Positions 15,140-25,181 of a stretch of DNA of 39,491 nt are shown piece by piece. The notes under the pieces are model-generated. The model was not told where the DNA came from. It did not search any database and saw only the letters and a program-made list of their open reading frames with translations. The translations under genes and the position numbers were made by a program. How positions within the stretch are numbered: the first letter of the stretch is position 1; every line of letters begins with the position of its first letter. This stretch comes from Alphaproteobacteria bacterium PA4 (GTDB lineage: Bacteria > Pseudomonadota > Alphaproteobacteria > Sphingomonadales > Sphingomonadaceae). The DNA lies in contig NKIQ01000026.1 in assembly GCA_002256005.1 (NCBI GenBank), positions 1 through 39,491 on the forward strand. Direction: 5' to 3'.

Positions 15140-15356
15140 TGGGGGGTATCGACATTCAAGTTTTCAAGAGCCTCCGGCGGCTGGGGCCGCAGGCCCCAGA
15201 CCCCATTTCGCTTTGATTTGGTCTCGAAAGCCGCCTGCGGTGCCGTGCAGTAGCCAGTAAATGGGGTCTGGGGCCAAGGCCCCAGCCGCCGGAGGCTCCA
15301 TTGTCATTGCAATCAGCGTTCAGCACGTCCGAAATGCTGACTGTCGATACCCCCTA
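15140..15356. repeat. Family A palindromic element, copy 1 (MITE-like)
   Basis: Non-coding element of 217 bp. Terminal inverted repeats of 15 bp (15140-15154 and 15342-15356, 14/15 paired) have the inward sequence TRGGGGGTATCGACA. An internal palindrome pairs 15170-15207 with 15260-15296 (GCCTCCGGCGGCTGGGGCC...). The right part carries GCAATCAGCGTTCAGCAC, shared with copy 2. The right terminus reads CTA on the plus strand at 15354-15356, which is the TAG stop of the minus-strand hydrolase gene. The left terminus has TGG in place of TAG and lies upstream of dacB. It has the architecture of a non-autonomous mobile or dispersed repeat; no transposase is encoded. Confidence 0.85.
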
Positions 15357-16364
15357 GCCCAGCGCCGCGCTCAGCGCGTCGCCCACTGCCGGGCGCAGCG
15401 TGAAGATGCCGCTGTCCCTGTGGCGGCTCGGGTGGACGCGATTGGTCAGCAGGGTCCAGGCCAGCCCGCACTCGAAATCGATCCACAGGCCGGTGCCGGT
15501 AAAGCCGGTGTGGCCGATGGTGTCAGGCGAGCAGGCGTCGCCTCCGGACCAGCCGGGAAAGGCGCGTTCCCAGCCGCAGGTGCGGTGGCCGAACTGGGCG
15601 GTGCGGATTTGCGCCAGCATCGCCGGCGACAGAAGTTCGCCGCGCAGCAGCGCGTGCGCAAAGTCCAGCACGCCATCGACGGTGCCGAACAGCCCGGCAT
15701 GCCCCGCCGCGCCGCCCAGGGCATGGGCATTTTCGTCATGCACCTCGCCTTGCAGCAGCCGGCCGCGCCATTGGCAGACTTCGGTGGCGACCGAAGGGCC
15801 GGGCGGCGGCCCATAGCCGAGCCCGGCGCCGAGCGGCCACGCCGACAGCGGCGCGCCGGTCAGCCGTTCGATGGCGATGCCGAGCAGGATGAAATTGATG
15901 TCGGAATAGACCGGCGGACCCGGCCGCCATTCGCGTTGCAGGACAAAGGCACGCAGCCGGGCCGGATCATCGCCATAGGTATAGATCGGCGCGACAGCCG
16001 GCAGGAAGGTGCGATGCGCGAGGCAATCCCGGAAGGTCAGCCGGCGTTCGGCGGCATTGGCGACATCATATTGGCGCAGGTCGGGGATGGCATCGGTCAG
16101 CGGGCGGTCGAGGTCGAGCCGGCCCTGTTCCGCCAGTTGCAGGATGATCGTCGTAGTGGCGATGACCTTGGAAACCGAAGCCAGGTCGAACCAGTGATCG
16201 CGGGTCAGCGGCTCCGGCGCCGGCAGCAGCGCCGCCGCCCCGGCCAGTCGCACCGCGCGCGCGCCATTGGCGCGGACCACCCCCAGGGTCGCACCGGGGA
16301 TGTCGCCGCGCGCGACCGCGGCCCGGGCGGGGGCAAAGGCCGTTTCACAGGCGTGTTCCAGCAT
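15354..16364 (-). CDS. Beta-lactamase-fold serine hydrolase, cytoplasmic; AmiE/YbbE-like candidate
   Basis: A 336-aa serine hydrolase of the class C beta-lactamase family (PF00144). Active-site motifs: Ser63-Lys66 (LASVSKVIAT), Tyr153-Ser-Asp155 (VYSDINFILLG) at the YxN position, and His285-Thr-Gly (GHTGFTGTG). The block GEVHDENAHALGGAAGHAGL resembles the subgroup of Bacillus subtilis AmiE (YbbE), a MurNAc-L-alanine amidase in muropeptide recycling. There is no signal peptide, so the enzyme is probably cytoplasmic, unlike true beta-lactamases. The gene starts 7 nt after the stop of the AmpG-like permease and is surely cotranscribed with it. Its TAG stop is formed by the end of repeat A. Amidase activity is inference; an esterase role is the alternative. 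Confidence 0.8.
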   Translation of the reverse strand: MLEHACETAFAPARAAVARGDIPGATLGVVRANGARAVRLAGAAALLPAPEPLTRDHWFDLASVSKVIATTTIILQLAEQGRLDLDRPLTDAIPDLRQYDVANAAERRLTFRDCLAHRTFLPAVAPIYTYGDDPARLRAFVLQREWRPGPPVYSDINFILLGIAIERLTGAPLSAWPLGAGLGYGPPPGPSVATEVCQWRGRLLQGEVHDENAHALGGAAGHAGLFGTVDGVLDFAHALLRGELLSPAMLAQIRTAQFGHRTCGWERAFPGWSGGDACSPDTIGHTGFTGTGLWIDFECGLAWTLLTNRVHPSRHRDSGIFTLRPAVGDALSAALG

Positions 16365-18124: not shown

Positions 18125-18199
18125 TGGTGGGCGCGACAGGGTTTGAACCTGTGACCCCTGCCGTGTGAAGGCAGTGCTCTACCGCTGAGCTACGCGCCC
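18125..18199 (-). tRNA. tRNA-Val, anticodon CAC, with encoded CCA end
   Basis: The minus strand folds as a full cloverleaf of 75 nt. The acceptor stem is GGGCGCG/CGCGCCC and the D-arm is GCTC/GAGC. The anticodon stem CTGCC/GGCAG encloses the loop TTCACAC, giving anticodon CAC (Val, GTG codons). The T-arm is ACAGG/CCTGT with the TTCAAAC loop. Discriminator A and the CCA tail are encoded (18125-18128). Confidence 0.97.
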
Positions 18200-23118: not shown

Positions 23119-23781
23119 ATGTCATTGCTGAAACACGTCTGTATCGCATCGCTGCTCGCGCTGGCCGCGCCCCTCCACGCCGCCGATATCGACAACACGC
23201 TTGGCGGCCTCAACGGCGACATCAGCTATTTCGGCACGCCCGGCGTGGCGACCTTTGGCCAGACGTTCGTCGCCGGCGGCAATCGGCTGACCGGCTTTTC
23301 GCTGTTCCTGATGGATCGCGTCGATGGCTTTCCCGATGTGCCGCTGGCCTTCCGCGGCTATATCGGCAGCTGGGACGGCAGCAAGGTCAGCACGCTGCTC
23401 TATCGCAGCGGCGACCGCAGCCGCGCCGGCAACGGCCTGATGGAATTCGCCTTCAGCACCGGCGCCATCGCCGTAACAGCGGGCAGCACTTACGTCGCTT
23501 TTCTAAGCGTCGCCGAAATGCCGGCGCAGGCCGACAGCCGCTTCACCATGCCGACAGCGCGCGATGCCATCCCCGGCACCTTCGTCTATCAGGACAGCTT
23601 CCACGACGCGTCGAAACTGACCAGCGAAGCCTGGCGCACGCAGAATGAAGACGCCTGGCTGAAGGTGCAGTTCAGCAACGCCGCCGCCGTGCCGGAGCCG
23701 GCGAGCTGGGCGCTGCTGCTGACCGGCTTTGCCGCCACCGGCGCTGCCCTGCGGCGGCGGCGGCGGGCGGTTGCGGCTTAG
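23119..23781 (+). CDS. PEPxxWA-CTERM sorting-signal protein (exported)
   Basis: A 220-aa secreted protein. Residues 1-21 are a signal peptide (SLLALAAPLHAA). The middle is a beta-rich domain with a TFVAGGNRLTGFSLFLMDR segment, resembling a carbohydrate-binding-type sandwich, without catalytic motifs. The C-terminus has the tripartite sorting signal: VPEPASWALLLTGF, a hydrophobic helix, then the basic tail RRRRRA. Such signals are recognised by an exosortase, which is not in this window; they occur on secreted proteins in exopolysaccharide-producing bacteria. The TAG stop (23779-23781) is the terminal TAG of repeat A copy 2. AAAGGA precedes the start. Its specific role is unknown. Confidence 0.85.
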   Translation: MSLLKHVCIASLLALAAPLHAADIDNTLGGLNGDISYFGTPGVATFGQTFVAGGNRLTGFSLFLMDRVDGFPDVPLAFRGYIGSWDGSKVSTLLYRSGDRSRAGNGLMEFAFSTGAIAVTAGSTYVAFLSVAEMPAQADSRFTMPTARDAIPGTFVYQDSFHDASKLTSEAWRTQNEDAWLKVQFSNAAAVPEPASWALLLTGFAATGAALRRRRRAVAA

Positions 23782-23996
23782 GCTGTATCGACATTCAAGG
23801 TTGAAGCGGCCTCCGGCGGCTGGGGCCGCAGGCCCCAGACCCCATTTCGCTTTGATATTGCCTGAAAACCCGCCTGCGTCGCTGTGCGGCAGCCAGTTAA
23901 TGGGGTCTGGGGCCTGCGGCCCCAGCCGGCGGAGGCTCTACGTCCTTCGCAATCAGCGTTCAGCACGGCTGACAAGCCGACTGTCGATACGCCCTA
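23779..23996. repeat. Family A palindromic element, copy 2 (MITE-like)
   Basis: A 218-bp element in the same orientation as copy 1. The ends are TAGGCTGTATCGACA (23779-23793) and TGTCGATACGCCCTA (23982-23996). Internal arms 23809-23846 and 23899-23936 are 38 bp with one mismatch. The core CTTTGAT and the right-hand GCAATCAGCGTTCAGCAC are shared with copy 1. Both terminal TAGs serve as stop codons: the left one for the PEPxxWA protein gene, the right one for the minus-strand CoA-transferase gene. TAGGC occurs in direct orientation at 23779-23783 and 23995-23999, which could be a target-site duplication. No coding capacity. Confidence 0.88.
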
Positions 23997-25181
23997 GGCG
24001 ACGCCCTTCAGCGCGCCATCGGCCGCAAAGGCCGCGATTGCTGCTGCATCGAAACCCAGTTCCGCCAGCACCGCCGCGCCATGTTCGCCGAGGTGCGGCG
24101 CCGGGCCGGCGATGCCGGCGGGTGTGGCCGAGAACAGCGCGGCCGGGCGGGCGGCGCGGACGCGGCCGGCGTCACCCTGCGGCACGGTGACGATGCTGCC
24201 ATTGTGCTGCACCTGCGGATCGTCGCCGACATTGGCGCTGGTGTTGACGCGGCCACCGACGGCGCCTTCGCGGATGAAGCCGGCCATCAGTTCGTCCATG
24301 GTGCGCGCGGCGATGGCGGCGGCGACGCGCGGCGCCCATTCGGACTGGCGCTTCATGCGGCCGCGCACGCTGTGCAATTCGGTGTCGGCGGCGAGATCGG
24401 CGAGCTCCAGCGCCCGCATCAGCGCGACGAACTCGACATCCTGCATCATGCCGATCGCCACCTGGCCATCGGCGCAGGGCCACAGCCGCGACAGCGCGCC
24501 ATATTCGGGGAACGGCGGCGGTGGCGCGTCGAGGAAGCTGTGGTTGTACATGCCTTCCGGCCAGTTGAAGGCGATGGCGGCATCGACCATGGCGACGTCG
24601 ATGCGCTGCGCCTCGCCGGTGCGTTCGCGGTGGAACAGCGCCGCGGTGATCGCCTGCGCCATGGTCAGCGCCGTCACCTTGTCGGCGACCAATGTGCGCA
24701 CCAGCTGCGGCCGGCCTTCCTTGTCGATCTGCGTTGCGGCAATGCCGCTCACCGCCTGCACCACCGGATCATAGACGCGGATATTGCTGTAGGGGCCGTC
24801 GCTGCCGAAACCGGTGATGCTGGCATAGATGAGGCGCGGGTTGAGCGCGGCACAGCGTTCATAGTCAAAGCCCAGCCGTTCCATCGTGCCGGGGCGGAAA
24901 TTGTCGATCAGCACATCGGCCCAGCCGATCAGCCGTTCGAGGATGGTGCGGCCGCCGCGCGTCTTCAGATCGATGGACAGCCCGCGCTTGCCGCGATTGA
25001 CGGCGATGAACATGGCCGACACATCGCCCTTGGCCGGCCCCAAGGTGCGCACCGGGTCGCCATGCGGACTTTCGACCTTGATGACATCGGCGCCCTGATC
25101 GGCGAGCATGGTCGCCGCCATCGGCCCCGACACGATCTGCGACAGATCGACGATCTTCACGCCCGCCAAAGCTCCGGCCAT
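23994..25181 (-). CDS. CaiB/BaiF-family (class III) acyl-CoA transferase
   Basis: A 395-aa enzyme of the formyl-CoA transferase family that moves CoA between carboxylic acids. The N-terminal Rossmann segment reads LAGVKIVDLSQIVSGPMAATMLADQGADVIKVE. NRGKRGLSIDLK and DVLIDNFRPGTMERLG are family hallmarks. The catalytic Asp is probably Asp167 in LVADKVTAL, aligning with Asp169 of formyl-CoA transferase, and is followed by ALFHRERTGEAQRIDVAM. The fold (interlocked dimer) fits the full length. The substrate is unknown; neighbours give little guidance. The final TAG stop belongs to repeat A. It is divergent from the PLP-enzyme gene across 118 bp. Confidence 0.9.
   Translation of the reverse strand: MAGALAGVKIVDLSQIVSGPMAATMLADQGADVIKVESPHGDPVRTLGPAKGDVSAMFIAVNRGKRGLSIDLKTRGGRTILERLIGWADVLIDNFRPGTMERLGFDYERCAALNPRLIYASITGFGSDGPYSNIRVYDPVVQAVSGIAATQIDKEGRPQLVRTLVADKVTALTMAQAITAALFHRERTGEAQRIDVAMVDAAIAFNWPEGMYNHSFLDAPPPPFPEYGALSRLWPCADGQVAIGMMQDVEFVALMRALELADLAADTELHSVRGRMKRQSEWAPRVAAAIAARTMDELMAGFIREGAVGGRVNTSANVGDDPQVQHNGSIVTVPQGDAGRVRAARPAALFSATPAGIAGPAPHLGEHGAAVLAELGFDAAAIAAFAADGALKGVA

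Follow-up and report, generated by a model that had tools for sequence, protein, structure and literature searches.

Which came first at a gene that ends on the edge of a repeat, the stop codon or the repeat? The question is raised by two palindromic elements in a 39,491-nt stretch of DNA from Alphaproteobacteria bacterium PA4 (the window), which forms contig C51 of a 3.0-Mb draft genome assembled into 53 contigs. Of 16 named relatives, Polymorphobacter multimanifer was the closest for one window protein (73% identity), which makes a Polymorphobacter-like sphingomonad the probable host. A first-pass annotation had proposed that a TAG in the terminal repeat of these elements serves as the stop codon of flanking genes. 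Here, we ask whether that codon is a gift of the element or the target into which it inserted.

Results

Two elements in the window end on stop codons

Both copies, with their inverted-repeat ends and common interior, were present as first annotated (Table 1). From the outside in, the four ends read TGG GGG GTATCGACA, TAG GGG GTATCGACA, TAG GCT GTATCGACA and TAG GGC GTATCGACA, each triplet lying exactly 3 nt before GTATCGACA, as had been reported. Exact GTATCGACA occurs four times in the window, always at one of these ends, while 16 sites match it with at most one mismatch, against 3.8 expected. The 15-bp terminal repeat described earlier is present at all four ends, but the repeat of the family as a whole is longer, (C)TAGGCYGTATCGACATTCA. 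An internal palindrome of 37 to 38 bp had also been described; the palindrome arms measure 38 nt in copy 2 and 21 and 17 nt in copy 1, the latter each 100% complementary.

The three TAGs are indeed the stop codons of flanking genes. Each coincides, at offset 0, with the stop of a predicted gene (genes here were called by a codon score of our own, not taken from annotation), encoding a PF00144 beta-lactamase-family protein, a PEP-CTERM protein and a family III CoA-transferase, respectively; the first had been named AmiE-like. The end with TGG, as annotated, faces the 5' side of dacB, a peptidase S13 gene. A search of the window at the Rfam gathering threshold returned a tRNA gene on the minus strand (18128–18199) as its sole match and nothing for the elements, and plasmid records searched with copy 1 gave no match.

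Table 1. Locations of the elements, their parts and related insertion sequences
Feature	Location	Strand	Remarks
MITE copy 1 with target slots	15140..15356	.	GTATCGACA-to-GTATCGACA length, 205 bp
Copy 1 left terminal repeat	15140..15159	+	TA slot reads TG (TGG); toward 5' side of peptidase S13 gene
Copy 1 right terminal repeat	15337..15356	-	TAG 15356-15354 is the stop of gene 15354-16364
Copy 1 GC-rich palindromic core	15168..15298	.	
MITE copy 2	23779..23996	.	both ends are stop codons of convergent genes
Copy 2 left terminal repeat	23779..23798	+	TAG 23779-23781 is the stop of PEP-CTERM gene 23119-23781
Copy 2 right terminal repeat	23977..23996	-	TAG 23996-23994 is the stop of CoA-transferase gene 23994-25181
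Copy 2 palindromic core	23809..23936	.	38-nt arms, 97% complementary
Element ends			GGCYGTATCGACA
IS copies or fragments, G268	L313/L349		
IS copies or fragments, G260	L315/L346, L321/L347, L325/L348		contig-end

The elements belong to a larger family

A profile of the terminal repeat, built from stretches of the host genome, found 61 ends. A wider scan gave 70 ends, of which 67, at 42 loci, scored at least 20, so that the host carries at least 42 loci with the repeat (C)TAGGCYGTATCGACATTCA; copy numbers here are lower bounds, as the first scans scored 40 candidates in the host and up to 19 per genome elsewhere. C17:35049, C27:63523 and C5:93121, three loci whose repeat scores are low, lie outside the counts of 42 loci and 67 ends and inside the Fisher tests below (45 loci). 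Family members are short, noncoding and GC-rich, about 217 bp including the terminal repeats. Measured from GTATCGACA to GTATCGACA, the outer length ranges from 96 to 228 bp, with most paired copies at 204 to 207 bp, and the length variants of 96, 112, 125, 139, 176 and 228 bp differ in the palindromic modules that they carry. Across the 61 ends, counting outward from GTATCGACA, G is conserved at −3 and −4 in 96%, A at −5 in 73%, T at −6 in 79% and C at −7 in 68%. This sharp drop outside the G at −4 fits a target boundary.

The palindromic core is also found without the terminal repeat, both in the host and in congeners. It is more widely spread than the terminal repeat: with the element as query, 18 of 41 genomes gave matches, every one of them from the host's genus, while among 24 genomes of the genus the terminal repeat (0–1 mismatch) was found only in the host, bar one isolated one-mismatch match in G005. 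Ten of the 40 host core copies scored had no terminal repeat by profile, although at least two of them (L126 and L108) retain decayed remnants by eye. The interiors also vary. At L107:2527–2754, L060:1510–1685 (the same locus as L219) and L114:2536–2741, the loop between the core palindrome arms has the opposite orientation to that in other copies, as though recombination had taken place between the core's long inverted arms. A second hairpin module, of the CCCCGGACTTGATCCGGGG type, replaces or joins one core arm at L107, L113, L117, L118, L119, L139, L142 and L144, and such modules seem to be exchangeable at the same point of the core.

Element ends hold stop codons in frame

The use of the element's TAG as a stop proved to be general. 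At 28/67 ends, belonging to 24/42 loci, the TAG slot holds the stop of a predicted gene, and four loci end genes on both sides. Twenty-five of the 28 stops are TAG in register, two are shifted by a one-base indel and one is TGA. The last, at L133:2827, has TGA in the TAG slot with the stop codon kept. Stop usage in the host, tallied in a nonrandom 389.5-kb sample described below, is dominated by TGA (240 TGA, 52 TAG and 41 TAA), so TAG at element ends lies far above the genome norm.

At the host loci, no gene reads into an element, against the 28 that stop in the slot. If a supplied stop met the upstream gene in a random frame, one-third would be in frame, and the observed 28:0 departs from this at p = 4e-14. 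Random insertion near the 3' ends of genes, with truncation, was rejected on the same grounds, as it would give genes that read in.

At the 39 ends without a stop, the slot has often changed: TAG is intact at 16, and the commonest alterations are CTGG (7) and CCAG (5). These changes resemble T-to-C substitutions on either strand. Very-short-patch repair makes such T-to-C changes at CTAG.

The stop codon was probably the target

In the first-pass reading, the element carries a complete stop codon, lands at or near gene ends and replaces the native stop. This would explain why the conserved end includes TAG and why that TAG stands in register at nearly all stop ends, and it accords with congener orthologues that mostly end in TGA. 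It does not explain why the stops are always in frame, and the flanking sequences point the other way. When the flanks of paired loci were joined at a single TA, 21/24 stop-using ends became TAG or TAA. The remaining three became TAC, among them window copy 1, whose TAC would need a later change; for copy 2, joining gives pre-insertion stops of TAG (PEP-CTERM gene) and TAA (CoA-transferase gene). Moreover, a stop codon directly beyond the far end of the element, as a displaced native stop would leave, was found at 0/24 stop-using ends, and insertion immediately ahead of the native stop was rejected on this ground. With their flanks joined, three of the four double-stop loci became two convergent stops that share 4 nt, the minimum overlap such stops can have. 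Together, the consistent frame, the restored TAR codons and the missing leftover stops suggest that the stop was probably there first, and we regard replacement of the native stop as improbable. Of the claim that the element brings its own stop codon, one base survives: only the G at the end probably comes from the element, and the TA, in most cases the whole stop, from the target.

The ends also bear on the size of the duplication. A TA-type slot is present at both element ends. T stands at −7 in nine ends (8 loci, one of them out of register by an indel), and in 9/9 the partner end has G, not A, at −4. This speaks against a 4-bp duplication, and a duplicated YTAR was rejected accordingly.

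For five elements, we looked for a base-exact empty site for comparison and found none among the congeners; for four of the five, no neighbor gene was found within 1.5 kb of the orthologue, although some of the loci stop at contig ends. Copy 1 was the exception, its downstream gene being retained in G017 and G021 with a drifted 3' end. The gene beside copy 1 has an orthologue in G017 whose TAG lies two codons earlier, and one in G021 that ends in TGA; an empty site whose gene already ended with the same TAG, which the annotation had named as evidence against an element-borne stop, was thus only half realized. For five flanking proteins, the orthologues mostly stop within a few residues of the host version, a few with longer tails, and most use TGA.

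Stop sites exceed the supply of CTAG

To what extent could target supply alone place elements on stops? In the 389.5-kb sample, CTAG occurs at 73 sites (8 stops, 49 intergenic and 16 coding), the sample being 20 nonrandomly chosen stretches (13 spanning bases 30001–50000 of a contig and 7 elsewhere) that contain 0/42 loci, since some of them were placed away from stretches already scanned. Elements lie on stops at 24/45 loci, the three weak ones included, compared with 8/57 stop plus intergenic CTAG sites (p = 3e-5, Fisher) or 8/34 when divergent and edge sites are omitted (p = 0.01, Fisher). To account for a stop share above the CTAG supply, one must invoke either selection or a longer target preference.

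Gene orientation is skewed as well. The 25 paired loci comprise 14 convergent, 10 codirectional and 1 divergent, while the 329 gene pairs of the sample comprise 48 convergent, 233 codirectional and 48 divergent. A 4-nt overlap was seen in 0/77 element-free convergent pairs (48 + 29); such overlaps are therefore rare, which makes their share among element sites surprising.

A role in transcription offers one account of this bias: the hairpins might be selected as bidirectional terminators or as protectors of mRNA 3' ends, so that copies at gene ends are kept as helpful. The predicted fold of copy 1 (−140 kcal/mol, z = −12.7), the number of convergent loci and the excess of stop sites over CTAG supply would all suit such a role. 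Termination does not, however, require exact placement on the stop codon, and a 96-bp copy at C25:450 sits on a stop without most of the palindromic core. We consider selection for termination or protection an unlikely explanation. Loss of insertions from coding and promoter sites accounts for much of the bias, perhaps not all of it, and the remainder may reflect a longer target preference or a benefit from termination.

An IS5-family transposase gene lies beside the same repeat

Exact matches to 15 bases of the repeat were present in 14 of the 396 genomes searched within the order, the host included. In eight of the non-host genomes, which represent five other genera of the same family, the repeat continues past the 15 bases, around interiors unlike the host's; single matches in G127, G351, G395, G144 and G361 were left out, as the sequence past the 15 bases was not the repeat. 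One of the eight, G268, carries the right-hand TAGGCYGTATCGACATTCA next to a transposase gene in two overlapping frames (PF13340 and PF01609), both of which score above cut-off for NCBIfam NF033580 (IS5 family); this copy has one end, the right, within its contig. In G260, TAGGCYGTATCGACATTCA lies at three contig-end fragments, and a 25-residue translated start there has no family match but agrees by eye with the G268 start at 17/25 residues. No gene stops on an end of the IS copies or fragments of these two genomes (0/4).

The transposase-less loci of the other six genomes (G217, G379, G375, G386, G376 and G145) show the association as well: a TAG stop lies on an end at 13/14, one of them by a one-base shift, a figure that should not be read as a rate, as an intact TAG was a condition of the search that found the loci, and such a condition favors stop sites. 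Both ends (≤3 mismatches) are seen at 11 of these 14 loci and one end only at L335, L342 and L345. Two, perhaps three, of the 14 appear to end two genes, although the flanking gene scores are weak in some (39 and 29 at L340; one of 27 at L343). In G217, G379, G375 and G386 (loci L332–L343), the repeat surrounds different GC-rich palindromes, for example CTCCCCCGCCAGGGGGAGG. Compared across genera, the sequences suggest that the same ends may have captured local repeats repeatedly.

No transposase of this kind was found in the host. One half of the IS transposase, used as a query, matched nothing there (E limit 1e-10), nor did PF13358 (DDE_3), the IS630 domain (0 matches in G000, E limit 0.001), and the element family therefore looks stranded there. 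The second search was also directed at a partner in the IS630/Tc1-mariner family, whose members likewise duplicate TA and favor CTAG; IS630 reportedly prefers the TA in CTAG (Tenzen and Ohtsubo 1991, cited in PMC2170065). Five of the 24 genomes of the genus do have PF13358 matches, none of them with a terminal-repeat match (0–1 mismatch). With no match to the domain in the host and the same terminal repeat adjoining an IS5-family transposase gene, we disfavored an IS630-type origin as very improbable.

A reported source of TAG stops at repeat ends is the GTAG superfamily of REP/BIME elements, moved by a REP-associated tyrosine transposase. REPs are described as using stop codons in the same way and as leaning similarly toward 3' ends (PMC3733652). 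The tetramer GTAG, however, occurs at only 2/28 stop ends and 1/39 others in the host, and the ends are 19- to 20-bp repeats common to a DDE insertion sequence. Descent from this superfamily is, in our view, highly unlikely.

Discussion

The host carries a family of elements whose terminal repeat is common to an IS5 insertion sequence and on whose ends genes stop in frame. We think it likely that these are nonautonomous MITEs of the IS5 family (IS427-like group) that inserted at TA, preferably in CTAG, restoring the stop on both sides, with selection keeping the survivors at stops. The elements would have been inserted in trans, preferably at a TA inside CTAG and with duplication of that TA, by a transposase that the assembly was not found to contain. 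As the element starts with G and ends with C, TAG would be read again on each side, on one from the target TA plus the element's G and on the other from the TA and the G that originally followed it. A TAG or TAA stop could then receive an insertion with the protein left unchanged, and insertion into the 4-nt stop-stop overlap of convergent genes (YTAR) would leave both unchanged. Coding and promoter insertions would be lost, so that survivors would accumulate at stops and 3' ends. At ends without a stop the TA would be free to decay, while purifying selection would retain it at stop ends. Past mobility, TA duplication, the preference for CTAG and purifying selection are deduced here from the shape of present-day sequences.

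Several features of this scheme are familiar. Published IS5/IS427 elements of Paracoccus mostly make 2-bp duplications, with repeats of 13 to 21 bp, and have two overlapping frames with a frameshift motif (PMC3281130). The insertion sequences of G268 and G260 share the repeat TAGGCYGTATCGACATTCA with the host elements and, in G268, the PF13340 and PF01609 halves in overlapping frames, and resemble the published group, most members of which make the 2-bp duplications. The host elements differ in holding palindromic repeats in place of a transposase and in lying on stops, where the IS copies do not. Correia/NEMIS and RUP MITEs are likewise short and noncoding, with terminal inverted repeats and TA termini, and an IS transposase is presumed to move them; they are mostly A+T-rich, whereas the host elements are GC-rich, and the available text does not describe them on stop codons (PMC2229807).

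The closest likeness in outcome is to the GTAG-type REPs. Their termini often supply the TAG stop of a flanking gene, and they crowd at 3' ends between convergent and codirectional pairs (PMC3733652), so stops supplied by repeat ends are already published, and this was the one clear precedent returned by our literature search for stop-codon use by repeats. REPs are, however, 20- to 40-bp palindromes tagged with GTAG (PMC3733652), whereas the host elements are about 217 bp, with terminal repeats, CTAG and a DDE-type relative. A single REP that ends two genes is absent from the accessible part of the description (PMC3733652). Within the literature searched, an IS5-type MITE that shows this stop-codon outcome, the TA-plus-G rule behind it and single elements that end two genes seem to be new.

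A bolder view, which we offer tentatively and judge unlikely in its full form, is that stop codons, above all the 4-nt convergent overlaps, are the niche of a transposon lineage whose ends remake a single TAR stop as two TAGs, so that one element can end two genes, lineage-specific hairpins are kept as bidirectional terminators, and docking modules were built independently in each genus from IS5 ends and its own palindromes.

The proposed mechanism provides a rule for repeats that end genes: a TA-duplicating element that starts with G remakes TAG on both sides and would be silent in a stop. In GC-rich genomes, rare CTAG stops would thereby become safe harbors. Insertion would place a large hairpin directly after the stop and would part overlapping convergent genes. 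For annotation, such stops call for caution, as they may be the boundaries of mobile elements. The TA-plus-G rule may be applied for testing to other IS427-type and TA-targeting elements.
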